Assembly: GCA_958295905.1 (NCBI GenBank)
Contig: OY282382.1
Span: 3,558,001 to 3,622,000 of the forward strand
Source: an uncultured Vicinamibacterales bacterium
GTDB lineage: Bacteria > Acidobacteriota > Vicinamibacteria > Vicinamibacterales > UBA8438
Length of the DNA stretch: 64,000 nucleotides
Direction: 5' to 3'
Shown here: positions 45,376 to 61,010 of the stretch, one piece after another
How positions within the stretch are numbered: position 1 is the first letter of the stretch
How the letters are laid out: every line of letters begins with the position of its first letter
Translations under genes and position numbers: made by a program
Notes under the pieces: generated by a model
Database searches by the model: none
Told to the model about the DNA's origin: nothing
The model's input: only the letters and a program-made list of their open reading frames with translations

Positions 45376-45594
45376 GCCGGGCATCGACAGCCGGCGGCAA
45401 GCGATGCATGCCGGCGGCAACAGGAGCGGCGGACCACCTGCGGGAAACGAAGACGCCTCGAACGCGTGGCCGCGCACCGGCATCGGCCGGTCGAGCACGT
45501 CCGAGAGCGTGCGGACGTTGCCGATCCACGACAGCGCCGCGATGGCGTCCGGCGACGACCTCGCGGCGCTGCTGGCGGCCGTCCGCGCCCGCAG

Positions 45595-45879
45595 ATGACC
45601 CCGGAAGTGACCCCGGAAGTGACCGGGGAAGTTACCCCGGAAGTTCGACTGCTGAGAGCGGTGTCCGGTGAAATGACCAGACAGCACCTCCAGGAATTAC
45701 TTGATCTGAAAAATGATGAACATTTCCGCAAATCCTATCTGCTCCCCGCTCTTCAGGCCGGCCTGATCGAAATGACCATCCCGGACAAGCCGCGCAGCAG
45801 CAAGCAGCGCTACCGCCTGACCCCCGCGGGAAGCGAGTACCTGAAGCGAATCGGGCTCTCCTCAAACGAGTGTGGGTAG
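45595..45879 (+). pseudogene. Isolated winged-helix C-terminal domain of a Fic or AlbA-type protein
   Basis: From ATG 45595 the 94-residue frame reads MTPEVTPEVTGEVTPEVRLL, then SGEMTRQHLQELLDLKNDEH, FRKSYLLPALQAGLIEMTIP and DKPRSSKQRYRLTPAGSEYL. This is the C-terminal winged-helix module of many Fic-domain proteins and AlbA_2-type ATP-binding regulators, including their TPEVTPEV linker. The N-terminal catalytic part is absent, so it is probably a truncated gene; a free-standing small regulator is possible. The preceding 220 bp hold nothing else clear, except that GACCTCGCGGCGCTGCTGGC at 45556 recurs inside the next gene at 46200. Confidence 0.6.
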
Positions 45880-46033
45880 GGGCGCGCCGATCAGCGGGTC
45901 GGCGAGGGATGCTGGCGGCGCAGGCGGCCTCGGGGTTGAGCGGTCATGGTGTTCACCTGACTGGTGGCGGACAGGCCGGCGAAATCCGCACGACCAGAGC
46001 CGGCGCGTCGCGTGGTGGCAGAATAGGCGGGAC

Positions 46034-49000
46034 ATGCCCGACGCCTCCCGCCTCCGGGCGCTGGCCGGCCGCCGCGTCCACCTGCCGGGCCACTTCGCCG
46101 GCGAAGTGACCATCGAGGGCGCCCGGCCGCTCGGCGCCGGCGCCGAACTCCGTGTCCGGCTGCCGGGCGGCGAGCTCGACGAGGCGGTGCTGTCCGGCGG
46201 CGACCTCGCGGCGCTGCTGGCGGCCGGACCGCCCACGCCCGCGGCGCGCTCGCCGGCCGACCCCGAGCAGGTCCGCCTGCTGGTCGAGTCGACCCGCATC
46301 CGGCTCGCCTGGGCCTGGGACCGGCAGTTCGCGGTGAGTCTGTCGGGCATCCGCACCCTGCCCCACCAGATCGAGGCGGTGTACCGGAAGATGCTGCCGC
46401 AGCCCCGGCTGCGGTTCCTGCTCGCCGACGACCCCGGCGCCGGCAAGACGATCATGGCCGGCCTGCTCGTCAAGGAGCTCAAGCTCCGCCAGGCGATAGA
46501 CCGCTGCCTCGTCCTGGTCCCGGCGCCGTTGACCCTCCAGTGGCAGGACGAACTGCTGCGGTTCTTCGGCGAGCCGTTCCAGATCGTCCACGCCGCGAAC
46601 GATCAGCAGCAGTTGCTCAACCTGTGGGAGCGCGAAGCGCAGGTCATCGCCTCCATCGACTACGCCAAGCAGGACGGCGTCCGGGAGCGCGTCTGGCAGC
46701 AGCGGTGGGATCTGGTCATCGTGGACGAGGCCCACAAGTGCAGCGCGTACACGAAGCGCTCGGCCGGCCGCGGCGACGAGGTGGAGCGGACCAAACGGTA
46801 CCAGCTCGCGGAGCGGCTCTCCGAGCAGTGCGACAACCTGCTGCTGCTGACCGCGACGCCCCACCACGGCGACGACGACCGCTTCGCGCACTTCATCCGC
46901 CTGCTCGACCGCGATCTGTTCCCCGAACCGCACCGCTTCGGCGACGAAGCCAAACGGGTTCGCCGCGAGATCCTGCGGCTCGGCGAGGACTGCCCGTGGT
47001 CGCTGCGCCGCCTGAAGGAAGACCTGAAGGACCTCGACGGCCGCCGGCTGTTCCCCGACCGCCACGTCCGGACCGTCAGCTTCCATCTCGGCCCGGAAGA
47101 GTACGCGGTCTACAAGGCGGTGACGGCCTACATCAACGAGTTCCTGCCGCGGGCGGCGGGCCGGCGGCAGAACAGCGTCGCGCTCGTCCGCACCGTCTTC
47201 CAGCGCCGTCTGGCCAGCTCGACCCGCGCGATCCACGAATCGCTGCTGCGCCGCCGGACGCGGCTGACGGACCTCGTCGACGAACTGGAGCGGCTGCCGC
47301 CGTCTCAGCGGGCGCGGCGGCTGGCGCAGCTCGCCGGAAGGCTGGCCGACACCGAGCAGGACGAGGACGATCTGGACGAGACCGCCCGCGACGCGCTGAT
47401 CGACGAGACGACGGCGGCGGCCGAGCTCGATCAACTCCGAACCGAAATCGCCGCGCTCGGCGACGTGGCGGCGCGGGTCGGCCGCCTCCGCGACAGCGGA
47501 CGCGACTCGAAGCTGGTGGCGTTGCGCGACTGCCTGCAACGGGCGGAGTTCCACGACCTGCAGGACGGCCGCGGCAAGCTCCTCGTCTTCACCGAGCACC
47601 GAGACACGCTGAACCACCTCCGGGAGCACCTTGCCTCGTGGGGCTATTCGACCTGCGCGATCCACGGCGGGATGAACCCGCGCGAGCGCCGGCGCGCGCA
47701 GGAGGAGTTCCGGACGAGCCGGCAGATCTGCGTGGCGACGGAGGCGGCCGGCGAAGGCATCAACCTCCAGTTCTGCCACCTGATGGTCAATTACGACCTG
47801 CCCTGGAACCCGACCCGCCTGGAGCAGCGCCTGGGCCGCATCCACCGCATCGGGCAGTCCCGCGACGTATACGCCTTCAACTTCGTCGCGACCTCCTCGG
47901 AGGACGGCCAGCCGGTCATCGAGGGACGCATCCTGGAGCGGCTGCTGAACAAGCTGGACCTGATGCGGAACGCGCTCGGCGACCGGGTGTTCGACGTCGT
48001 GGGCGAAGTGCTGTCGCTGAACCGGATCAACCTGCCGGACATGCTCCGCGACGTGGCGTACGACCCGCGCCGGCTCGACGACTACCTCGACGCCATCGAC
48101 CGGATCGATCCGCAGCAGCTCGACCTGTACGAAGAGGCCACCGGCATCGCCCTGGCGCGGGGGCAGGTCGACTTCTCCTCCGCCGCTCGATCGAATTTGG
48201 AAGCGGAGGAGCGGCGGCTGATGCCGCGCTACGTCGAGGCCCATTTCCTGAACGCGGCGCGCGCCGTCGGGCTGCGCGCCGAGGCGCGTGCGGACGGGCT
48301 GTGGCGGGTGGAGCACGTGCTCGCCGATCTCCGCTCCGACCGGCTCGCCTCCGTCCGGCGTCTCGGGAAGCCGGACGCCGGCTACCGGAAGCTGACGTTC
48401 TACAAGGAGCACCTGGAACAGGACCGGCATCTCGACGCGGTGCTGATCGGTCCCGGACACCCGCTGTACGGCGCGCTGGACGAGCGGCTGCGGGAACGCC
48501 TGCGCGCGATCGCTGGACAGGCGGCGGTGTACGTGGATTCCGCGGCCGACGCGCCGTATCGGCTGCATTTCCACGAGATCGCGGTCCGCGGCCAGACCGC
48601 CGGCGGCGAGGCGGCGACCATCCACGCCGAGCTCGTGGCCGTGCGGGAGGACACCGGTGACGACGTCGCCGGCGCCGATCGGTTCCACGTCGTCCCCGCG
48701 GATCTGCTCATCGACCTGCCGGCGCATCCGCGCCCGCCCGCGGCGCTGCCCGCGTTCGACCACCAACCGGTCAGCGACTACGTGAAGTCCGCCGTGCAGA
48801 TGGACCGCCGGGAAGCGTCACGGATCGAGCGCGGCCGGTACGCCGACGTCGCGCGCGACTACCTGGAACGGTCGTTCGACGCCCGGGTGAAGGCCGCGCA
48901 GAACCGGGTCATGGGGCTGCGGGCGCGCGAAGCGACGGACCCCGAGGTGGCCCTGGCGCGGCAGCGCGCCGAGCTCGATCTCGAAGATCTCGAGCGCACG

Positions 49001-49603
49001 CGGACGGCACGTCTGGCCGGCGTCGAACGGCTCCGTATCGCCCGCCACGGTCCGGTGCGTCACGTCGCCAGCTGCCTCGTGCTGCCGCCCGACGCCGCCC
49101 CGGCCGGCGCGTCCGAACCGGCGGGGGAGCCGGACGCGGCGCTGAAGCGCCGCATCGAGCTGGCCGCCGAGGACGTGGTCGTCGCCTGGGAGGAGGGCCA
49201 GGGACGCGAGTGCGAGCGGGTCGGCCACCAGAAGATCGGCTTCGACGTCCGCAGCCTCGCGCCGCCCGATCCGCAGACCGGATACCGCGACCCGGCCGCC
49301 GGCGTGCGCCGGATCGAAGTCAAGGGCCGCCGGCGCGGCCAGCCGTTGCGCCTGACCACCAACGAGTGGTACAAGGCGCAGCAGCTCGGCGACACCTACT
49401 GGCTGTACGTCGTCTGGGACCCGCTGGACGCCCCCGATCCGGTCCCGCTGATGGTCCGCAATCCCGCCGCGCGCCTCGACCACGCGAAGAAGGAGGTCGT
49501 GGCCGCCCGCTACTACGACCTGCCGGCCGCCGCGGTCGAGCAGGCGGCGCGGGAGCAGGGGACCGAGCGGGGCGGGGTCGGCGGCGGTGCGGCGGCGCGT
49601 TGA
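46034..49603 (+). CDS. SNF2-family helicase with C-terminal DUF3883
   Basis: The 1189-residue protein starts at ATG 46034. The SNF2 ATPase core has Walker A ADDPGAGKTIM (131-141), DEAH in VIVDEAHKC (231-234), LLTATPHHGD, and helicase-C motifs VFTEHRDTLNHL, CAIHGGMNPRER and TEAAGEGINLQF...RLGRIHRIGQ. The C-terminus (about 1040-1180) is a DUF3883 domain, VGHQKIGFDVRS...RRIEVKGRRRGQ...LTTNEWYKAQQLG, seen in many restriction-like proteins. Helicases of this type are linked to type 3 BREX (BrxHII) and DISARM-like loci. It would translocate on or remodel DNA in phage defence. It leads the defence island. Confidence 0.9.
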   Translation: MPDASRLRALAGRRVHLPGHFAGEVTIEGARPLGAGAELRVRLPGGELDEAVLSGGDLAALLAAGPPTPAARSPADPEQVRLLVESTRIRLAWAWDRQFAVSLSGIRTLPHQIEAVYRKMLPQPRLRFLLADDPGAGKTIMAGLLVKELKLRQAIDRCLVLVPAPLTLQWQDELLRFFGEPFQIVHAANDQQQLLNLWEREAQVIASIDYAKQDGVRERVWQQRWDLVIVDEAHKCSAYTKRSAGRGDEVERTKRYQLAERLSEQCDNLLLLTATPHHGDDDRFAHFIRLLDRDLFPEPHRFGDEAKRVRREILRLGEDCPWSLRRLKEDLKDLDGRRLFPDRHVRTVSFHLGPEEYAVYKAVTAYINEFLPRAAGRRQNSVALVRTVFQRRLASSTRAIHESLLRRRTRLTDLVDELERLPPSQRARRLAQLAGRLADTEQDEDDLDETARDALIDETTAAAELDQLRTEIAALGDVAARVGRLRDSGRDSKLVALRDCLQRAEFHDLQDGRGKLLVFTEHRDTLNHLREHLASWGYSTCAIHGGMNPRERRRAQEEFRTSRQICVATEAAGEGINLQFCHLMVNYDLPWNPTRLEQRLGRIHRIGQSRDVYAFNFVATSSEDGQPVIEGRILERLLNKLDLMRNALGDRVFDVVGEVLSLNRINLPDMLRDVAYDPRRLDDYLDAIDRIDPQQLDLYEEATGIALARGQVDFSSAARSNLEAEERRLMPRYVEAHFLNAARAVGLRAEARADGLWRVEHVLADLRSDRLASVRRLGKPDAGYRKLTFYKEHLEQDRHLDAVLIGPGHPLYGALDERLRERLRAIAGQAAVYVDSAADAPYRLHFHEIAVRGQTAGGEAATIHAELVAVREDTGDDVAGADRFHVVPADLLIDLPAHPRPPAALPAFDHQPVSDYVKSAVQMDRREASRIERGRYADVARDYLERSFDARVKAAQNRVMGLRAREATDPEVALARQRAELDLEDLERTRTARLAGVERLRIARHGPVRHVASCLVLPPDAAPAGASEPAGEPDAALKRRIELAAEDVVVAWEEGQGRECERVGHQKIGFDVRSLAPPDPQTGYRDPAAGVRRIEVKGRRRGQPLRLTTNEWYKAQQLGDTYWLYVVWDPLDAPDPVPLMVRNPAARLDHAKKEVVAARYYDLPAAAVEQAAREQGTERGGVGGGAAAR

Positions 49604-49750
49604 CGTGGCGTTCATGCTGCACTATCGTCATGGGCGCACGACCCTGAAGAGCCAGGACGACGAATGTTGCCATCACGCGGCCTGACGGTTCGCGGTGTTT
49701 GCGGATAAGGCCGACGACGCTATCCTTATCAAGTTTTCGATGAGGTCGCA

Positions 49751-52228
49751 TTGATAGATCCAAAATTCACCGAGGCGTTTCGGGATACGCTTTTTTCCGG
49801 CAAGTATAACTTGTTGTTAGGATCTGGTGTTTCCCTGAATAGCTGTGACGGCCGTGGAAGACCTTTGCGCGGCACAGATCAGCTACGACGGGATATATGC
49901 AACGTGACCGAAATAAACAGTGCGACATCCCTTCCTCGCGCATATGCGTTATTGACGCCCCAGCAGCGCCAATCCGAGCTAGTCGATAGGTACTCGCGTT
50001 GTAAACCGGGTAAGGAACTTTTATCCCTGCGTCAGTTTCTTTGGAAGCGTGTTTTTACATTCAACATAGACGACGTCATTGAAAACATTTACCGTTATAG
50101 CGATAGCGCTCAGAAACTGGTGACTCTAAATTTTAATTCTGCTTTCGAGCCTGATACGGAAAAATCTGAATTGCAATGTATTCACCTGCACGGTCATGTA
50201 AAGCAATACCAAGCAGGGTTTGTTTTCTCCCACAATGAATATGCACGTACAATGCAAGGAAACAATCCGTGGATGTTTCTATTGTCTGAACTACTGCCGT
50301 CTGAATCGTTCATCATCGCCGGGACGTCTCTCGATGAAATAGATCTTGAATACTACTTGGCTCGACGCACGTCAAGCACACCTCGCCGGGGACGTGGACC
50401 ATCTTTGTTGGTAGAGCCGAATCCGGATGCTGCAACGCAGGCAGATTGCAAGAAATATGACTTGACTCTAGTTAAGGCTGAATTCGGTCAATTCTTGACC
50501 TGGATTTCGAAGACATTTCCCGAGCGCCCTTCAGTACGTGGGCTCATCGTCCCACCGGCAGTGAATTTGTTTCGATCTGAAATTCCTCAAAAAACTCTCT
50601 TGCGCTTCTTCAGCGATTTTGCTCTCGTCCAAACTAAAGCCATAGCGGAAGACGCCACGCCTAGGGCATACATGTACGGCGCGGAACCGACATGGTCTGA
50701 CATTCGTGAACACCTTGACGTAGAACGCAGTGCGAACCAAGTTGCGACGGACTGGCTTACCAATTGGGTTAAGCGGCCTTCTACGGACGAGCGCGTACTG
50801 CTGATTTTGGACGGTCCGGCAACCGGCAAAAGTACGCTGCTGAAACGAGTAGGGCATGACTTGGCATCACTTGGTAAAGTTGTTTTTTACATTCGAACAC
50901 TAGCCAAGATCGACGTCCGCACCGCCGTACGTTGCTTGCAGCAACGGACTTCTCCTTCCATTATCCTCGGTGATAATTTCGCCGATTGCGCCGAACAAAT
51001 TCGCGATCTGTTGGAGAGAATCGGATCAAACACAGACGTAGCCTTTGTGGGCGTTGAACGCGCATATAGAAAAGATCACATTGATGTTGTTATGTCTGAT
51101 GTTCCTATGACTGTGGAGCGGCTTGGCAATCCGACGACAAGCGAACTGAATCAGTTGCTTGAAAAATATAGAAGCTCTGGCCTTATTGCCAATAGAAACT
51201 TAGTCAAGAATCGCCAACGCGCAATTGGTGCCTTGCGAGGCGAACCTATTGCCGTGGCTGTTTGTCGTATTCTCAACGATTACCGGCCATTGGATCGAAT
51301 AGTTGACTCTATATGGGACGCTGCCAATGAAAAACAACGCATGGTCTATCTTTCGTGCGCACTAGCGCACCATTGCCACGCTGCCGGCGTCAGGCGATCC
51401 GTCCTACAGATGATTGCGGGATCTGATTTTTCAGTTGATAGTTTGCTGGGAGAGGAATGTCCGCTTCCACTTGCTTTTCATCCATCTGACGATGATTTTT
51501 TGCTTCCTCAGAGCGTGGTCGTTGCAGAACGTGTTCTGGCTCGTATTTCAAAACGGAAGCGAGATTTGACAATCGACGTGTTTACAAGCCTTGCAAAGAA
51601 CATTGCGCCGCGTGTGAATCGTGCAGCAGTCAGGATGCGTACTCCCGATGCGCGTCTTGCTGGACGCCTTTTTGACGGCGACAAGATCGTTCGACCTCTT
51701 CTGGCAGCGCACTCCGAGGATTTCTATATTGCTGCAAAGGATGCCTGGGAGTGGAACTCTCGATATTGGGAACAACGAGCCTTGTTGATTGCGGACCGAG
51801 ATATAAAAACGGCTCTTCAGTTTGCTCGCCACGCCGTTGCCATCGAAGAGCATCCTTTTCCCCTGACTACGCTGGGTACTGTATTGTTGAAGCACTTGGA
51901 TAGTTGTGTGAAGACCGATAGAGCCTCGATATTTTCGGAAGCATTCTCTGTGCTTAACCAAGCAATATCAATAGAGGCAAACAACGCAAGAATAACGGCA
52001 AAGCCATTTTCTATCCTCTTTGCTGGAACATCTAAGTTTATTGAAAATGGAGGTAGTCTGACTCATGAGCAACACAACACGATTCGTAACCATGCCGACG
52101 ACGCGCGATTCCGTTACGGTGACGATGCTGGGATCGCGGCGGCAATAAGGAGCTTGGATTCTCGTATGCAATCTCGAATGAAATCTCGAATGAAATTTCC
52201 CTCGCCAAGTTGGTTGGATGGCAAGTGA
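49751..52228 (+). CDS. SIR2-STAND NTPase, probable NADase defence sensor
   Basis: The 825-residue protein starts at TTG 49751 with GAGG five bases upstream. The N-terminal SIR2-like domain has LLLGSGVSLNS (21-31), TFNIDDVIENIY, IHLHGHVK and IAGTSLDEIDLEYY, the NAD-binding and catalytic positions. A P-loop NTPase follows, LILDGPATGKSTLL at about 350, and the C-terminal half is helical without clear repeats. SIR2 fused to STAND modules is known from Avs5-type and related anti-phage proteins that deplete NAD on sensing phage protein. Base composition is visibly AT-richer and codon use differs from both neighbours, so the gene was probably acquired separately. Confidence 0.85.
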   Translation: MIDPKFTEAFRDTLFSGKYNLLLGSGVSLNSCDGRGRPLRGTDQLRRDICNVTEINSATSLPRAYALLTPQQRQSELVDRYSRCKPGKELLSLRQFLWKRVFTFNIDDVIENIYRYSDSAQKLVTLNFNSAFEPDTEKSELQCIHLHGHVKQYQAGFVFSHNEYARTMQGNNPWMFLLSELLPSESFIIAGTSLDEIDLEYYLARRTSSTPRRGRGPSLLVEPNPDAATQADCKKYDLTLVKAEFGQFLTWISKTFPERPSVRGLIVPPAVNLFRSEIPQKTLLRFFSDFALVQTKAIAEDATPRAYMYGAEPTWSDIREHLDVERSANQVATDWLTNWVKRPSTDERVLLILDGPATGKSTLLKRVGHDLASLGKVVFYIRTLAKIDVRTAVRCLQQRTSPSIILGDNFADCAEQIRDLLERIGSNTDVAFVGVERAYRKDHIDVVMSDVPMTVERLGNPTTSELNQLLEKYRSSGLIANRNLVKNRQRAIGALRGEPIAVAVCRILNDYRPLDRIVDSIWDAANEKQRMVYLSCALAHHCHAAGVRRSVLQMIAGSDFSVDSLLGEECPLPLAFHPSDDDFLLPQSVVVAERVLARISKRKRDLTIDVFTSLAKNIAPRVNRAAVRMRTPDARLAGRLFDGDKIVRPLLAAHSEDFYIAAKDAWEWNSRYWEQRALLIADRDIKTALQFARHAVAIEEHPFPLTTLGTVLLKHLDSCVKTDRASIFSEAFSVLNQAISIEANNARITAKPFSILFAGTSKFIENGGSLTHEQHNTIRNHADDARFRYGDDAGIAAAIRSLDSRMQSRMKSRMKFPSPSWLDGK

Positions 52229-52315
52229 TGCCAGGGTGGCGAAGAATCCGACGCAATTTCTCGAAGAAGTGGGTTGCTTGGACGACCGCTCATGTGACAC
52301 CGCTCGGCGGTGTGG

Positions 52316-55123
52316 ATGATGGCGATGAACGACCGCCGGCTGATCGAGGACTACCTGCCACTGGGCGCGCTCAATGCCATTGCGTCCAAGGAGAAGCTGC
52401 ATCCGCGGCGGTACGTGGAACTGGTCCACTACTGGCCGGCCCGCCGCCCGATCACCGCCTCGCGCGCCGCCATCTACGCGGCGCTGGTCTCCGCGCCGAA
52501 CTCCGACGCCGAACGGGAAGATGCGGCGTCGTTCGTCGCCCGGCTCGCGGCGTTCAAGCCCGATTCGGAAGTCGTCCGGGAAGCTGGCGTTCGCATCAGG
52601 CAGGCGCGTGGCGGGCGCAGGCCGAAGGTGCTTGATCTGTTCGCCGGTGGAGGAGCGATTCCGCTGGAGGCCGCCCGCCTTGGTTGCGAGAGCCATGCCG
52701 TCGACTACAACCCGGTGGCGCACCTGATCGAGTTGTGCACGCTGGTGTACCCGCAGCAGTTCGGGCCGAAGCTCGCGGACGACTTCGAACGCTGGAGCCG
52801 CGTCCTGCTCGAACGAATGCGGCAGGACATCGGCAACCTGTACCCGTCCGTCCAGGTGCCGGCGACCGGGGACGTGGCGAAGCAGGCTCAGCTATTCTCC
52901 GCTCCTGTCCGGGGGAGTGTAGCTCCCGTTCGGCGGACCGCTCTCGTAGCCTGCATCTGGGCGCGCACGGTCCCCTGCCGCCGGCCCGGCTGCGCCGCGC
53001 CGGTGCCGCTCGTTCGCCAGGCTTGGCTGCGCAAGAAGGGCGGTGCGGTGGCCGCCGTCCCCCGAATCGAAGACGGCGACCGCCTGCGCTGGAACATCGT
53101 TTCGGGCGCGTCCATCCGTGAGGTTTCCCAGCACGAGGAGCAGACCGGCGCAGGGCAGGCGGTCTGCGTGGCGTGCCACACGCCCGTTCCCTCCGGTTAC
53201 GTCAAGGACATGGCAATCGCGGGACGGATGAAGGAATCCCTCGCCGCTGTGGTCGTGGACGGCCAACGGTCCAAGCTCTACCTGCCGCCCACCGCCGCGG
53301 CGTTGCCGGATGACGACGAATGTCTGAGTCGGCTTGACGCGTTGCTGAACGAGACCGGGCTGGATTTGCTCGACGAACAGATGAATACGGCGGACTCCAC
53401 GACGGTTGCTGGACGTGGCTACGGTATTTCGCTTTGGCGCGAGCTCTTCACCCCCCGGCAACTGCTCGTCCTGTTCACGCTCGTCAAGCACATGCGGCAA
53501 ACCCATGCCGAGATGCGTGACGAGGGCATGGCCGAGGATCGGGCGCGGGCGCTCGCGACCTTTTTCGCGATGGCGTTCGGCCGCTTCGTCATCATGTTCA
53601 ACAAGTTCTCTCGATGGGAACCGAAAGATCAGATTACTAGGGGCGCCATTGGTGATCGGCAAGCGCTCAAGATGATTTACGACTTTTCCGACATCAATCC
53701 CTTCGCAAAGACGACCGGAAGTCTCCCCTTCGCACTGGACCGGGAAGCCTACTGCATCCGCGAGCTCGCCAAGATCGGCAATTCATCGATCGTCACGCGC
53801 GGCAGCGCGGAGAAGCTCTTCTACGACGACGAAACCTTCGACGCCGTGATCACCGACCCGCCCTACTACAGCAGCATCTACTACGCGGACCTGTCGGCGT
53901 TCTTCTACGTGTGGCTGAAGCGGATCGTCGGCGACCTCTACCCGGAGCACTTCACCCTTCCCGCGCCCCCGAAGCGGCGGGAGGCGGTCGCCCAGCCGAG
54001 CGAGCACGGCGGGGATACACAGAAGGCGAACGCCCACTACCAAGACCTGATGCGCCGCTCGTTCACCGAGGCGCGGCGTGTGCTGAAGCCGGGCGCGCCG
54101 CTCGTCTGCGTCTACGCGCACCGCACGACGGAGGGCTGGGCCACGCTGATTTCGGCGCTGGTCGACGCCGGGCTGACGGTCACCGAGGCGTGGCCGGTGC
54201 AAACGGAGTCGCGCGGACGGGTGAACGCGCTCGGGGCCGCGGCGCTCTCCGACAGCATCTTCTTCGTCGCGCGGCGGCGGGACGACACTGGTGCCGGGCA
54301 GTACGAGACTGACGTGAAGCCGGAGCTGCACCGCATCGCGCGGGAGCGGGTGACGACGCTGTGGGCCGGCGGCAAGGGGATCGGCGGCGCGGACCTCCTG
54401 ATGGCCGCGGTCGGCGCCGGGCTGCGCGCCTACACCCGGTTCGCACGGGTCGAGTACGCCAACGGCGAGCCGGCGCCGGCCGAGCGCTATCTGCGCGAGG
54501 TCGAGGGGGTCGTGCTGGACGTGATGCTCGACGAGATCTTCGGTCTCCGCGGCGCGGCGGTCGGGTCGGTGGATGCGCTGACGCGGTTCTACATCCTGTG
54601 GCGGTTCACCTACCGCGAGTCGCCGATCGAGGCCGGCGACGCCTACGTCTTCTGTTATCCGCAGGGGATCGAGGTCGATGGTACCGGCGGCATCTGCGGG
54701 CCGGCCCCGGCGCTGGTCGAGAAGATCCGCGGTAAGGGCAGCGGCAAGTTCCGTGTCCGTACCTTCGAGGAGCGCGGCGGCGACGAGAATCTAGGCGTCG
54801 GTGAAGACGGCAGGCCGGCTTCGCTCATCGACGTCGTCCACCGGCTGCTCTGGCTGCTCGATCACCGGCCCGCGGCGCTTCCCGCGTTTTTCCGGAAAGC
54901 GCATCCGAATACGGAGCAACTCCGCCTGGTCACGCAGGCGCTCTGCGCTCCGGTCCTCGGCGGCCCGCGGGCACAGGATGTGGCGCCGACCGCGGAGCTG
55001 CGCGCCCTCGCTAGGCTGAACGCCAACTGGCGGAGCGTAGTCGAAGGCGGGGCGTTCGCGCGGGAGACCGAGACGCGGATCACCGGACAGCGGGAACTGG
55101 TTCTGGAAAGCGACGACCGATGA
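52316..55123 (+). CDS. DUF1156 DNA methyltransferase
   Basis: I use ATG 52316; GTG 52310 and ATG 52325 are also in frame. The N-terminus has the DUF1156 signature (IEDYLPLGALNAIASKEKL, VHYWPARRPITASRAAIYAAL). The SAM-binding motif DLFAGGGAIPLEAARLGC follows at about 105, a zinc-ribbon-like insert has CRRPGC and CVACH, and the catalytic motif is VITDPPYYSSIYYADLSAFF. The length, about 935 residues, fits the COG1743 adenine-specific methylases associated with type 3 BREX (PglXI) and other defence loci. It probably marks host DNA. Its stop overlaps the DUF499 start (ATGA). Confidence 0.9.
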   Translation: MMAMNDRRLIEDYLPLGALNAIASKEKLHPRRYVELVHYWPARRPITASRAAIYAALVSAPNSDAEREDAASFVARLAAFKPDSEVVREAGVRIRQARGGRRPKVLDLFAGGGAIPLEAARLGCESHAVDYNPVAHLIELCTLVYPQQFGPKLADDFERWSRVLLERMRQDIGNLYPSVQVPATGDVAKQAQLFSAPVRGSVAPVRRTALVACIWARTVPCRRPGCAAPVPLVRQAWLRKKGGAVAAVPRIEDGDRLRWNIVSGASIREVSQHEEQTGAGQAVCVACHTPVPSGYVKDMAIAGRMKESLAAVVVDGQRSKLYLPPTAAALPDDDECLSRLDALLNETGLDLLDEQMNTADSTTVAGRGYGISLWRELFTPRQLLVLFTLVKHMRQTHAEMRDEGMAEDRARALATFFAMAFGRFVIMFNKFSRWEPKDQITRGAIGDRQALKMIYDFSDINPFAKTTGSLPFALDREAYCIRELAKIGNSSIVTRGSAEKLFYDDETFDAVITDPPYYSSIYYADLSAFFYVWLKRIVGDLYPEHFTLPAPPKRREAVAQPSEHGGDTQKANAHYQDLMRRSFTEARRVLKPGAPLVCVYAHRTTEGWATLISALVDAGLTVTEAWPVQTESRGRVNALGAAALSDSIFFVARRRDDTGAGQYETDVKPELHRIARERVTTLWAGGKGIGGADLLMAAVGAGLRAYTRFARVEYANGEPAPAERYLREVEGVVLDVMLDEIFGLRGAAVGSVDALTRFYILWRFTYRESPIEAGDAYVFCYPQGIEVDGTGGICGPAPALVEKIRGKGSGKFRVRTFEERGGDENLGVGEDGRPASLIDVVHRLLWLLDHRPAALPAFFRKAHPNTEQLRLVTQALCAPVLGGPRAQDVAPTAELRALARLNANWRSVVEGGAFARETETRITGQRELVLESDDR

Positions 55124-58026
55124 GCGAAAGACTTCGCCCGTGGCTCGAGTGCGTCGAGCTGCACCCCGACGTCCTCTCGGACGAATTCTCGGAGGACGTC
55201 TTCGCGCTCGACCTCGGCGCGTTGTCCGACCACCTGATCGGGGCCGACGCCGGCCTGCCGGCCGCGGAGTTGCCGCGTGTGCCGGCCGTCTACCGGGACG
55301 CGGACAGCTTCTTTCAGGCGTCGTACCTGACCGGCGGCCTGCGGGCGCTGCTCGACGACGTGTTCGGGCGGCTGGCCGGCGCGCGGGGCAACCGCGTGCT
55401 CAAGCTGCTGACCCCGTTCGGGGGCGGCAAGTCGCACACGCTGGCCGCGCTGCTGCACGGCGCCCGGTCGCGGCGGGCGCTCGACGCGCTGCCGGAAGCG
55501 GCCGGGTTGCCGCGGCTGGACGGCGTGCGGGTGGCGGTGGTCGACGGGCAGTTCTTCGACGCGACCACCGGCAAGCGGGCGCCGGCGGAGACGTTCGCGG
55601 CGCGGACCGTCTGGGGCTGGATTGCGTGGGCGCTCGGCGGGCGGGACGGTTACGAGGTCGTCCGGGCGCAGGACGAGGCGCGCGTCGCCCCCGGCGGCGA
55701 CGAGATCATCGCGCTGCTCCGCCGCGGCCCGAGCCTGATCCTGATCGACGAGTTGCTGGAGTATCTGATCAGCGCGGGGGGCGTGCGCGTCGAGCGGACC
55801 ACGCTCCGCGACGAGACGCTGTCGTTCCTGAAGCGGCTGACGGTGGCGGTGGGTGCCGTGGATGACGCGGTGCTGGTCTACTCGTTGCAGTCGAGCAAGC
55901 GCGAATCGCTCGAATACACAAGCCTGCTGCGGACCGTCGAGCATCTGGCCGCCCGCAAGGACCAGCGCCGGGAACCGGTCGAGGGGAACGAGATCCTGAA
56001 CGTCATCCAGCGGCGGCTGCTGGCGGCGCCGCCCGATCCGCGGGCGGCGGGCGGCGCGGCCGAGGCGTGGCGGCGGGTGTTCACCCGGATGCGCCGCGCC
56101 TACGCGCAGAGCGACGCGGAACGGCGGCAGGCGGAAGAGGACGGGCTGGCGCTCCGCGACCGGATCACGGCCGCCTACCCGTTCCATCCGGCGCTGATCG
56201 ACGTGATGCGGGAGCGCTGGGCGGCCGTGCCGGAGTTCCAGCGGACGCGCGGCGCGCTGCGGTTCCTGGCGTCCTGCCTCCGCGCGGCGCACCGCGCCGG
56301 CGGATCGCGCGCGCTGCTCGGTCCCGGCGACGTTCCCGTGCGGGACAACGACGTGCGCCTCGCCTTCTTCAAGGAGGTGGGCCAGCGCGAAGACTTCCTC
56401 GCCTGCTTGGAGCACGACTTCGTGGGCGCGAACGCGCGCACCCGGCGGATCGACGACCGGCGCGCCCGCGAGGTCACCGCTGAGGCGGGCCGGCGGCCCG
56501 CCACCCGCCTCGCCACGACGATGCTCCTGTACTCGTTCGGCGGCCTGCGCCGCGCCGCCGGCGACGACGGCGACCTGCTGCCGCCGGGCATCGGCGAAGC
56601 GGACCTGCTGGATGTCGGCATCGGCCCCGACCTGGACGGCACGACCGCGCAGGCGTGCCTCAAGGAGCTCCGGGAGCAGTGCTTATACCTCCACTTCGAC
56701 GGCGTGCGCTACCGCTTCAAGAAGGACCCCAACGTCACTCTGCTCGTCGAGCAGGAGGCCGACGCGGTCGCCCGCGACGAAGCCGGCGTGCGCGCCCGCA
56801 TTCTGGCGCTGATCGATGAACGCCTTGCCGGCCGCCGATCCGCCGTCGTCTGGCCGGCGAAGTCCGACGAGGTGCCCGACTGCGACGCGCAGTTCCTGAT
56901 CGCGTACCTGCCGATCGAATTCGCCGCGCTGTCGGCGGCCGAGCAACAGGAGAAGGCACAGGAAATCTGCGAGCAGTACGGCAGCCGCCCGCGCGAGTTT
57001 CGGAACGGCTTGGGGCTGGCCGTGCCGGCCGTCGATCAGGGGGAAGTGCTGCGCCGCGCCGTGCGCTACCTGCTTGCCATCGAGCGGGTTGAGAGCCGGT
57101 GGCGCGAGCACAACCTGACGGACACACAGAAAGCCCAGCTTCGGGAACGCGGAGCCACCGAAGGGGCGGCGGCCGAATCCGCCCTGCTCAAGCTGTATCC
57201 GGAGGTCTGGCTGCCTGCGTCCGCCGAGGGCGCGCTGACGCTGGACGCGGTCGGCCTGGGCGGCCGGCCGCTCCAGACGACGCTCGACGAGAAGAAGCGC
57301 GCCCGCATCCACGAGCGCCTGATGGAGCTGCTGACGACCGTGCGCAAGAAGGTCTTCGGCAGCGTCGCGCCGGGCAAGATCGTCGAGCTGTACCGCCTCG
57401 GCGACGACGCTGGCGATCCCGGCATCCCGACCGACAAGGTGGTCGCCGGTTTCTTCTCGTTCCTCGGCTTCCCGCGGCTGCACGCCGCCGACGTCGTGCG
57501 CACGGCGATCGCCCGCGGTGTCGAGCTCGGCCTATTCGCCTACACGACCGGCCGGCCCGCGCTCGGCGACGACGGGCGGTACCGGCTCGACCGGAGCCGC
57601 ACCGCGTTCGAACGGACGGTCGCGGAGGACGAAATCGACCTCGACTCCGGTTTTCTCATCGCGCCCGCCGCGCTGCCGGAGCCGGAGAAGCCGGCCGCGG
57701 CGCCGATCTCGACCAGTGGCGGCGGAGACGACGACGCCCGCTACCCGGCACCCGGCGGCGCCGGCGCGATTCGGGAGCGGACGGGCGTGACCGCCGGGGC
57801 GGAGCCCGCCGCCCAGGGTTCGCACGACTTCACCATTTCGTTCGTCGCCGACCGAAACGAGTTGTACGCCGCCTGGAACGCGCTGGCCAACCTCGCCGAC
57901 GCGGCCGGAAAGGTCTCGGTCCGCGTGCAGGCCGCGTCGGACAAGGGTTTCGACCCCGCCGGCATCGAGAACGGCGTCCTGGAACCGTTGCGGGAACTCG
58001 GGCTGATCGATGACGATCAGGCGTGA
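55120..58026 (+). CDS. DUF499 P-loop ATPase
   Basis: The 968-residue protein starts at ATG 55120, overlapping the methyltransferase stop by four bases. The Walker A motif is TPFGGGKSHTLAAL (98-111) and Walker B is LILIDELLEYLI near 210. DUF499/COG1483 ATPases accompany DUF1156 methylases in many defence loci and correspond to the BrxC-like ATPase of type 3 BREX. The C-terminal region has an acidic, glycine-rich linker (STSGGGDDDARYPAPGGAG) and a final domain DFTISFVADRNELYAAWNAL. Co-translation with the methylase argues for one complex. Confidence 0.9.
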   Translation: MSERLRPWLECVELHPDVLSDEFSEDVFALDLGALSDHLIGADAGLPAAELPRVPAVYRDADSFFQASYLTGGLRALLDDVFGRLAGARGNRVLKLLTPFGGGKSHTLAALLHGARSRRALDALPEAAGLPRLDGVRVAVVDGQFFDATTGKRAPAETFAARTVWGWIAWALGGRDGYEVVRAQDEARVAPGGDEIIALLRRGPSLILIDELLEYLISAGGVRVERTTLRDETLSFLKRLTVAVGAVDDAVLVYSLQSSKRESLEYTSLLRTVEHLAARKDQRREPVEGNEILNVIQRRLLAAPPDPRAAGGAAEAWRRVFTRMRRAYAQSDAERRQAEEDGLALRDRITAAYPFHPALIDVMRERWAAVPEFQRTRGALRFLASCLRAAHRAGGSRALLGPGDVPVRDNDVRLAFFKEVGQREDFLACLEHDFVGANARTRRIDDRRAREVTAEAGRRPATRLATTMLLYSFGGLRRAAGDDGDLLPPGIGEADLLDVGIGPDLDGTTAQACLKELREQCLYLHFDGVRYRFKKDPNVTLLVEQEADAVARDEAGVRARILALIDERLAGRRSAVVWPAKSDEVPDCDAQFLIAYLPIEFAALSAAEQQEKAQEICEQYGSRPREFRNGLGLAVPAVDQGEVLRRAVRYLLAIERVESRWREHNLTDTQKAQLRERGATEGAAAESALLKLYPEVWLPASAEGALTLDAVGLGGRPLQTTLDEKKRARIHERLMELLTTVRKKVFGSVAPGKIVELYRLGDDAGDPGIPTDKVVAGFFSFLGFPRLHAADVVRTAIARGVELGLFAYTTGRPALGDDGRYRLDRSRTAFERTVAEDEIDLDSGFLIAPAALPEPEKPAAAPISTSGGGDDDARYPAPGGAGAIRERTGVTAGAEPAAQGSHDFTISFVADRNELYAAWNALANLADAAGKVSVRVQAASDKGFDPAGIENGVLEPLRELGLIDDDQA

Positions 58027-58079
58027 CGTGCTGCCGGTGTCCTGAACGAGCTCATCGGTCCATGATGGGGATCTGCTGA

Positions 58080-59093
58080 ATGGCGCGCTCCGGCCTCCTG
58101 CTCGATCTCGTTCGTGCCGGCGCGCGCGGCGATCGGGCGCTGTTCCGAAAATCGCTGGAAGCGCTCGTCACGGAAGAGCGGGCCAAGCAGCATCACGTGC
58201 TGGCAGACCGCCTTGCGGCGCATCTTCAGCCCGACGGAGGGCGACCGGCGGGCGGTACGCCGCCGTCGCCGCGGCGCAACGGGCCGGCCGCGGAGCTGTA
58301 CCACGAGACGGCGCCGGAGCGCAGGTTGGACGATCTCGTGCTTCCCGGCCCGGTGATCGACGCCGGCCGGGAGCTGATCGAGGAGCACGAACGCAGCGAC
58401 CTGCTGCGTGCGCACAATCTGGAGCCGAGGCACCGCATTCTGCTGACCGGCCCGCCCGGCAACGGCAAGACCTCGTTCGCCGAGGCGCTGGCGGCGGAAC
58501 TGGCGGTCCCGCTGCTCTCCGTCCGCTACGAGTCGCTGATCGCCAGTTATCTCGGCGAGACCGCCGTCCGGTTCTCCCGCCTCTTCGATCAGGTGCGGAC
58601 CCGTCGCTGCGTCCTCTTCTTCGACGAATTCGACGTGGTTGGAAAGGAGCGCGGCGATGTGCACGAAACGGGCGAGATTAAGCGGGTCGTCAGCTCGCTC
58701 CTGCTGCAGATCGACACGCTGCCGAGTTACGTCGTCGCCGTCTCCGCGACGAATCACCCGGAACTGCTCGACCGCGCCGTGTGGCGCCGCTTTCAGCTTC
58801 GGCTCGCACTGCCCGCGCCAACGCCTGCGCTCGCTCGAGAGTGGTTTCGACGCTTCGAGCAACGCTTCGAGTCGAAACTGGTTCCCGCTCCGTCCACCCT
58901 CGCCAAGCGTCTTCACGGCCTGAGCTTCGCGGAGCTGGAGCAGTTCTGCCTCGACGTGCAGCGGCATCACGTGTTGAAACTGCCGGAGAGCGACGTGCGC
59001 GCCATCGTCGCGGAACGGTTGAAGCAGTGGCGGAAGCGCGTGCCGGCTACCGGCAGCCGCGCGACGATGCCGGCGGACGACGACAATGCCTGA
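58080..59093 (+). CDS. AAA ATPase, IetA-like
   Basis: The 337-residue protein starts at ATG 58080, 54 bp after the DUF499 stop. The N-terminal helical region is followed by a single AAA module: Walker A GPPGNGKTSF (124-133), Walker B CVLFFDEFD (177-185), sensor VVAVSATNHPELLDRAVWRRF with its arginine finger. ATPases of this kind are usually encoded directly upstream of an S8 subtilisin-like protease; that pair was reported as the IetAS anti-phage system. Here the next frame begins 8 bp before its stop and is the start of such a protease, now broken. Confidence 0.85.
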   Translation: MARSGLLLDLVRAGARGDRALFRKSLEALVTEERAKQHHVLADRLAAHLQPDGGRPAGGTPPSPRRNGPAAELYHETAPERRLDDLVLPGPVIDAGRELIEEHERSDLLRAHNLEPRHRILLTGPPGNGKTSFAEALAAELAVPLLSVRYESLIASYLGETAVRFSRLFDQVRTRRCVLFFDEFDVVGKERGDVHETGEIKRVVSSLLLQIDTLPSYVVAVSATNHPELLDRAVWRRFQLRLALPAPTPALAREWFRRFEQRFESKLVPAPSTLAKRLHGLSFAELEQFCLDVQRHHVLKLPESDVRAIVAERLKQWRKRVPATGSRATMPADDDNA

Positions 59094-59250
59094 ACGTCCG
59101 CTGCTGATCCTGCAAAATCCTGGTGAACCGCTTCCAGGCCTCAAGAGACGTGGCGGCGGTGGCGCGCCCTCACTTCCCGAGCCGCGCGCGAAAGGTCGAG
59201 CGGCTGGAACCGAAGTTCGAGAAACTGCAGAGCCAGCGCAGCCAGCGCAC
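59086..59250 (+). pseudogene. S8 peptidase N-terminal remnant (IetS-like), frameshifted
   Basis: ATG 59086 overlaps the AAA gene end. The first frame reads MPERPLLILQNPGEPLPGLK then RRGGGGA. The expected continuation is in another frame: ARPHFPSRARKVERLEPKFE then KLQS. Together these are the characteristic N-terminus of the S8 peptidases that follow IetA-type ATPases. The subtilisin domain itself, with its Asp-His-Ser triad, is nowhere in the window. The protease is thus both frameshifted and truncated. Confidence 0.65.
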
Positions 59251-60452: not shown

Positions 60453-61010
60453 ATGGCGGTTCTCCAACGGCGCGAGCTCGTCACGGCGGAGGAGCTGTTC
60501 GACAGCGCGGACGACGGCTATCGCTACGAGCTGGTGCGGGGAGAGCGGATCCGAATGGACCCGACCGGCGGGCGGCACGCCGCCGTGGCCGTCCGCATCG
60601 CCCGGCTGCTCGACGAGTACGTCGAGGCGCACGACCTCGGCGTCTGCGGTACCGCGGAACCGGGCTTCGTTCTGCAGCGGGCCCCGGACGTCGTCCGGGC
60701 GCCCGACGTGTCGTTCGTCGCCAAGGCGCGCATTCCCGAAGCGGGCATCCCCGCCGCCTACTGGCCGGGCCCGCCGGACCTCGCCGTCGAGGTCGTGTCT
60801 CCTTCCGATCGGCTCGCCGACGTGCATGGCAAGATCGCCGAGTACTTCGCGGCCGGCACGCGTCTGGTCTGGCTGGTCGAGCCTGCCGCGCGGGTCGTCT
60901 ACGCCTATCGATCGCAGCATGACGTGCAGGTGATCGGGGGCGGCGGCGAGTTGACCGGCGGCGAGGTGCTGCCGGGATTCCGGTGCCCGGTGCGGCGGCT
61001 GTTTCCGTAG
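60453..61010 (+). CDS. Uma2 family (DUF820) putative endonuclease
   Basis: The 185-residue protein starts at ATG 60453. It has the PD-(D/E)xK-like Uma2 fold: LVTAEELFDSADDGYRYELV, RAPDVSFVAKARIP, and the core DLAVEVVSPSDRLADVHGKI with AEYFAAGTRLVWLVEP. Catalytic D and E-x-V positions are intact. These proteins occur in many copies in cyanobacteria and other bacteria; nuclease activity is predicted from fold, and a biological role is not established. Confidence 0.88.
   Translation: MAVLQRRELVTAEELFDSADDGYRYELVRGERIRMDPTGGRHAAVAVRIARLLDEYVEAHDLGVCGTAEPGFVLQRAPDVVRAPDVSFVAKARIPEAGIPAAYWPGPPDLAVEVVSPSDRLADVHGKIAEYFAAGTRLVWLVEPAARVVYAYRSQHDVQVIGGGGELTGGEVLPGFRCPVRRLFP

Follow-up and report, generated by a model that had tools for sequence, protein, structure and literature searches.

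An Hma (Type-1 BREX-Related) operon carrying a SIR2-STAND gene between its helicase and methylase genes

We analyzed a defence island in a window of 64,000 nucleotides (positions 3,558,001 to 3,622,000 of contig OY282382.1, assembly GCA_958295905.1) from an uncultured bacterium of the order Vicinamibacterales (Acidobacteriota). In this island, genes for an SNF2-type helicase, a DUF1156 methylase and a DUF499 ATPase form a BREX-like operon without PglZ, and a gene coding for a SIR2-STAND protein lies between the first two. The operon is very probably an ordinary and apparently intact Hma system, equivalent to the Type-1 BREX-Related (BR) systems, with the SIR2-STAND gene as a passenger in the style of the Hma-embedded candidates (HEC).

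Core genes and the HmaA nuclease

The genes lie on the + strand in the order Fic-like remnant, hmaA, SIR2-STAND, hmaB, hmaC, ietA and ietS stub; the single strand, the gene order from hmaA onwards and the 4-bp overlap of hmaB with hmaC had been given in an initial annotation of this stretch and were confirmed. Using PADLOC models for system assignment, we found that the best models for the three core genes were HmaA (627.7 bits), HmaB (357.1 bits) and HmaC (303.7 bits), while the best BrxH and DrmD models reached 334.6 and 429.3 bits with the helicase. hmaA (46031..49603) encodes an SNF2/SF2 helicase with a C-terminal DUF3883/NOV_C nuclease domain; its longest open reading frame spans 45872-49603 from a GTG at 45872, and the ATG at 46031 is the probable start. 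hmaB (52316..55123, start approximate) encodes a predicted DUF1156 amino-methyltransferase and hmaC (55120..58026) a DUF499 AAA+ ATPase.

The Hma system was named for its helicase, methylase and ATPase (Payne, 2021, PMC8565338). Type-1 BR systems are described as having a helicase with an added active PD-(D/E)XK nuclease, a DUF1156 N6-methyltransferase and a DUF499 ATPase, without PglZ (Rakesh and Krishnan, 2026, PMC12839542, where experimental work on a fusion of a nuclease with an Snf2 helicase in Halomonas is also cited). The operon analyzed here shows the same order, hmaA-hmaB-hmaC, the same helicase-PD-(D/E)XK fusion in HmaA, a DUF1156 HmaB and a DUF499 HmaC, and PglZ, iSTAND and DUF3780 are absent from the locus, the island genes being assigned to other families. 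It differs in the 825-aa SIR2-STAND gene and a scar of the Gabija gene gajB between hmaA and hmaB, and in an HmaC that lacks the N-terminal HEPN domain. The Walker A and B motifs of HmaC are intact. The three core genes are the named Hma system, equivalent to Type-1 BR. The minimal helicase-methylase-ATPase module proposed in the initial annotation is indeed BREX-like and without PglZ, but it is not new, as its three core genes match a system that already has a name.

Since Type-1 BR is defined without PglZ, the absence of PglZ here is the rule for the subtype. No PglZ, BrxA, BrxF, DrmA, DrmB or PLD nuclease was found among the island genes, as previously annotated, and the three PglZ matches in the host genome (6.3 Mb in three contigs) are all distant, at 0.66 Mb and 2.84 Mb on contig C1 and on contig C3, the locus lying at 3.61 Mb. 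The matches at C1:664490 and C3:16264 share score and frame length, which suggests a duplication or an assembly repeat. With HmaB as bait, we compared 80 named loci, together with others from the phylum; the sample consists of the nearest relatives as judged by HmaB, and many of these are metagenome bins. PglZ was regularly absent next to the sampled loci, a point that the initial annotation had raised as a question. The L065 contig (G507:C16:35825-39357) carries a separate cluster with PglZ and a different, SNF2-type helicase, ~22 kb from its hma operon on the other strand, beyond apparent transporter genes and others that look unrelated.

Three other assignments were rejected. Type 3 BREX (BrxHII, PglXI, BrxC, PglZ, BrxA and BrxF) has a homologous helicase, methylase and ATPase, but it requires PglZ, BrxA and BrxF, which are missing here, and the helicase of the window has its own nuclease and an HmaA score nearly twice that of the best BrxH. 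DISARM was discarded because DrmA, DrmB (DUF1998) and the PLD protein DrmC are absent among the island genes, and Type-3 BR because it requires an active PglZ in the locus and a nuclease-free helicase, neither of which fits.

The NOV_C/DUF3883 region at the C-terminus of HmaA contains the E, GFD and (I/V)EVK motifs of a PD-(D/E)XK nuclease domain (49157..49435), with the catalytic E at 49157, D at 49244 and E-V-K at 49316-49324. These E, D and E-V-K residues are invariant in 16 aligned sequences, some of which are only 25% identical to HmaA of the window. The last 260 residues were modelled with AlphaFold2 (mean predicted local confidence, pLDDT, 87.5). The model matches archaeal Hjc resolvases (Z ~10, root-mean-square deviation ~3 over 110 residues), as well as the restriction enzymes NhoI and Eco15I and the SPARDA nuclease, all at Z 9-10. 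Similar Z values were also reached by unrelated helical proteins through the long helices of the model; the resolvase match is given weight because it spans the separate domain 106-250 and is consistent with the motif. Judged by motif and model, HmaA is predicted to carry its own nuclease, so that neither PglZ nor a substitute effector for it would be needed.

The DPPY motif is invariant in the HmaB alignment, and variability peaks around residues 181-480, a putative target recognition domain. HmaB has been called an m5C methylase (Payne, 2021), whereas the DPPY motif here would fit an amino-methylase (N6-A or N4-C). In L075, hmaB (L075:10001-12773) is frameshifted and ~44% identical to that of the window in both pieces, compared with 75% for hmaA and 70% for hmaC, and looks like a swapped methylase allele. 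L113 has a second hmaB-like gene, of which head and tail were found, between hmaB and hmaC (L113:11278-16410).

The embedded SIR2-STAND gene

The gene between hmaA and hmaB (49751..52228, TTG start) was identified by its Pfam domains and motifs, and its G+C content is 48.5% in a region of ~70%. At third codon positions it is 46%, compared with 85-93% in the hma genes. The protein has the motif GSGVS for NAD binding, N and D in TFNIDD, the catalytic histidine in HLHG and a Walker A. Like Avs5/SIR2-STAND, its best PADLOC and PDB sequence match, it combines a SIR2_2 NADase domain, in which N and H are conserved, with a Walker A-containing STAND NTPase after it. It differs in that the Avs5 model is matched over the SIR2 part only (32.9 bits) rather than over its full length, and in that the STAND domain is nSTAND5. 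Among solved structures, the 'SIR2 family protein' 9nah comes nearest in sequence (39.6 bits, SIR2 part).

Homologues in the phylum are 46% identical in genome G374 and 23-26% identical in others, and they lie on their own: the 12-19 kb retrieved around them contain no hma genes. The closest of them (L162 in G374) is split in two pieces by ~1.1 kb. Searches of plasmids and IMG/VR found no relatives at the sensitivity used. Just upstream of the gene in the window lies a palindrome, GATAAGG-N13-CCTTATC, with perfect 7-bp arms (49704..49730, + strand); none arose in shuffles of the window and none was seen upstream of the homologues. It is a possible operator for the SIR2 gene.

Defence genes encoded between Hma genes have been termed HEC and singled out by 'guilt by embedding' (Payne, 2024, bioRxiv), and some have demonstrated anti-phage activity, according to the passages of PMC12111858, PMC11411939 and PMC12988326 that refer to them. 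The SIR2-STAND gene has the position of an HEC as described there, between Hma core genes, but it matched no PADLOC HEC model at E 0.001. Comparable arrangements are known from Type I restriction-modification (RM) operons, one containing DarTG2 (PMC12255303) and another a GmrSD-like pair, both close parallels to the embedded cargo. As with DarTG2, an unrelated toxin-type defence sits here between core genes of a modification system, and DarTG also occurs in the corresponding slot of L049, but host operon and cargo are different. The BREX-Related survey (PMC12839542) lists nuclease back-ups and leaves SIR2 unmentioned in its main text. A role of the SIR2-STAND protein as a conserved part of the system was rejected, as it did not recur in the other slots sampled and its homologues stand alone. 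The gene is embedded cargo and very probably not a missing effector.

Contents and turnover of the hmaA-hmaB slot

The distance between hmaA and hmaB in the 79 loci with both genes in line was at most 100 bp in 32 and >450 bp in 44, or ~43 when corrected for a late hmaB start call that overstated the gaps of L109, L117 and L128, one of which falls below 450 bp. Gaps of ~500 bp between hmaB and hmaC were left unused, since N-terminal extension of HmaC probably accounts for some of them or part of their length. Among the closest relatives (HmaA 60-80% identical), the slot holds nothing, Gabija, DarTG, HD or Schlafen proteins. The closest clade consists of five operons from Acidobacteriota, Gammaproteobacteria and Chloroflexota, with HmaA 75-80% identical to that of the window. 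Here the slot is empty in L060, where hmaA and hmaB overlap by 4 bp, and is occupied by Gabija in L061 and L075 (GajA with an OLD-like TOPRIM domain, GajB of the UvrD type), while in L062 and in the window a gajB tail stands directly before hmaB, behind other DNA. Farther slots contain DarTG (L049), DarG and a STAND protein (L103), HD domain proteins (L063, L069), Schlafen and ParA (L101) or a ParA-like protein with DUF4365 (L066). A Pfam tally of 69 slot proteins gave six with Schlafen AlbA_2, four UvrD helicases and two each with Macro, HD and PIN; SIR2_2 was present in the protein of the window only. On the HmaA tree, slot contents differ between close neighbours.

The gajB scar of the window, the 3' end of a gene for a UvrD-like helicase, was located by DNA alignment with L062 at 52233..52319 (+ strand), following the SIR2 stop codon. 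It reads RVAKNPTQFLEEVGCLDDRSCDTARRCG up to its stop, compared with GWSKAPSRFLVEMGCLGDHGSDTAAGRIG in L062, and in both the TGA of the gajB tail overlaps the ATG of hmaB. The DNA alignment scores 53 (maximum 38 in 1000 shuffles), and L062 retains 57-65 codons of the GajB tail (E ~1e-19). Because the 3' end of gajB directly follows the SIR2 gene, Gabija was probably the occupant of the slot before SIR2-STAND.

Core genes have also left traces. In L103 (7400-7570), 26 residues of the head of hmaB are joined in frame to ~35 residues of the tail of hmaA, between two cargo genes, and copies of the hmaA tail occur in the slots of L066 (49 residues, 69% identical to its own hmaA) and L058 (24 residues). 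In L062 (12790-16562), ~3.5 kb between hmaB and hmaC are flanked by the head of an hmaC and the tail of an hmaB. Reversed slot sequences, used as a control, gave nothing below E 0.002. In the window, a 55-nt duplicate of the head of hmaA (45538..45592, + strand, a copy of ~46183-46238) has an alignment score of 67, while 500 dinucleotide shuffles gave at most 38 and 208 other real stretches of the window at most 36; it is possibly a core-gene fossil. Other repeats of the island were discarded as fossils, as they seem to reflect no more than the usual resemblance among G+C-rich coding sequences.

The joint in L103 is what a single crossover with a circle bearing an hmaA tail, cargo and an hmaB head would leave, and an unequal exchange between two operons followed by a deletion would serve equally. 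Taken with the hmaA tails of L066 and L058, the repeated hmaB tail and hmaC head of L062 and the gajB tail of the window, it suggests, if tentatively, that the junctions of Hma core genes may be true exchange slots, at which cargo units bordered by core-gene ends are swapped or stacked by recombination.

Several points weigh against the reading of the SIR2-STAND gene as an independent passenger of an intact Hma operon. The structure model of the protein has a pLDDT of 40 (single-sequence), so that only sequence motifs and Pfam speak for its fold; the evidence for the gajB scar comes from ~28 codons; and methylation and phage restriction by the locus are predictions from sequence. The SIR2-STAND protein could, moreover, depend on Hma, and its position in the operon may couple its expression to that of the core. 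By analogy with PrrC/EcoprrI and PARIS/Ocr, it might act as a guard that fires when a phage inhibitor blocks HmaABC, for which its embedding, the precedent of embedded back-up genes sensing restriction inhibitors and the back-up effectors proposed in the BREX-Related survey (PMC12839542) would speak. We regard such a guard as unlikely, though, as the cargo families of the slot are mechanistically unrelated, several being known to work alone, and the homologues of this protein sit away from any hma locus. It is more doubtful still that the gene came to lie between hmaA and hmaB in a chance pile-up: the neighbouring remnants (Fic-like tail, ietS stub) and the absence of the island from a sister species do mark a turbulent site, but the hmaA-hmaB junction is either tight or filled, with many recognizable defence genes, and its scars of earlier cargo and core genes show the same junction repeatedly used.

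The least probable explanation is the one favoured initially, a new minimal BREX-like system in which the helicase-methylase-ATPase core drives SIR2 NAD+ depletion as a dedicated replacement for PglZ: for all that the SIR2-STAND gene lies within the operon on the same strand, with intact NADase and Walker motifs and no PglZ nearby, HmaA has its own nuclease with invariant residues, SIR2 recurs between helicase and methylase in no other sampled locus, the slot of the sister operon L060 is empty, the composition of the gene is sharply different, and the protein brings a STAND sensor domain of its own and is found by itself in other places.

Neighbouring genes, proposed mode of action and implications

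Downstream of hmaC, ietA (58080..59093) encodes the intact AAA ATPase of IetAS (481 bits). The S8-protease gene ietS is a stub (59086..59220), identified by comparison with the long open ietS that directly follows ietA, 77% identical to that of the window, downstream of hmaC in L062. In the window, ~33 aa of the IetS N-terminus are followed by a frameshift and ~20 more aa before the match ends, whereas IetAS requires both an intact ATPase and an intact S8 protease. As ietS is truncated and frameshifted, the AAA/S8 pair, also put forward initially in place of PglZ, is improbable as an active effector, and IetA is part of an IetAS module of its own, the protease gene of which is broken.

At the other end of the island, the start previously set at 45595 is that of a Fic-like protein remnant (45595..45879), a C-terminal winged-helix tail (PF21247 Fic-like_C, 88.1 bits) preceded by the 55-nt duplicate of the hmaA head. 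The dcd gene and a TonB-type receptor gene flank the island, with 16.9 kb between them. A genome of the same genus lacks the whole insert and has, between the same two flanks (85-90% identical at the DNA level), 7.9 kb of different DNA. At the right edge, a Uma2-like putative endonuclease gene was recognized by eye at 60453-61010. Contig C1 has four further DUF499 loci, at 3272152, 2959591, 5834881 and 5576426 (L039-L042). HmaB is also present in L039 and in L042, the latter with a GajB-like helicase upstream of hmaB, while L040 and L041 apparently lack helicase and methylase and have an OLD/AAA-type ATPase next to DUF499. Three further SIR2_2 proteins are encoded at C1:1915204, C1:2979343 and C1:2676052, the second ~17 kb from a DUF499 gene.

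We propose that HmaB would mark host DNA at a specific site, on adenines (or on N4 of cytosine), and that HmaC, a BrxC-like AAA+ ATPase, would assemble a surveillance complex. HmaA may then translocate along unmarked invader DNA and cut it with its C-terminal PD-(D/E)XK nuclease. The SIR2-STAND protein, having entered a slot probably held earlier by Gabija, would be an autonomous back-up, independent of Hma: its STAND domain probably senses a phage protein, oligomerizes and triggers the SIR2 domain, which would destroy NAD+ and arrest the infected cell.

Together, our analyses indicate that this BREX-like operon without PglZ comes with a nuclease of its own and that the SIR2 gene rides along as a passenger rather than being the missing effector. 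New in detail are the presence of SIR2-STAND as cargo in this position, the trace of an earlier occupant and the fossils of core genes. Such scars expose the turnover of defences at one fixed junction and allow the succession of defence genes in a lineage to be reconstructed; such slots can also be mined for undiscovered defence genes. If the junctions are true exchange slots, they would give 'guilt by embedding' a mechanism and allow the order of past defences to be read.

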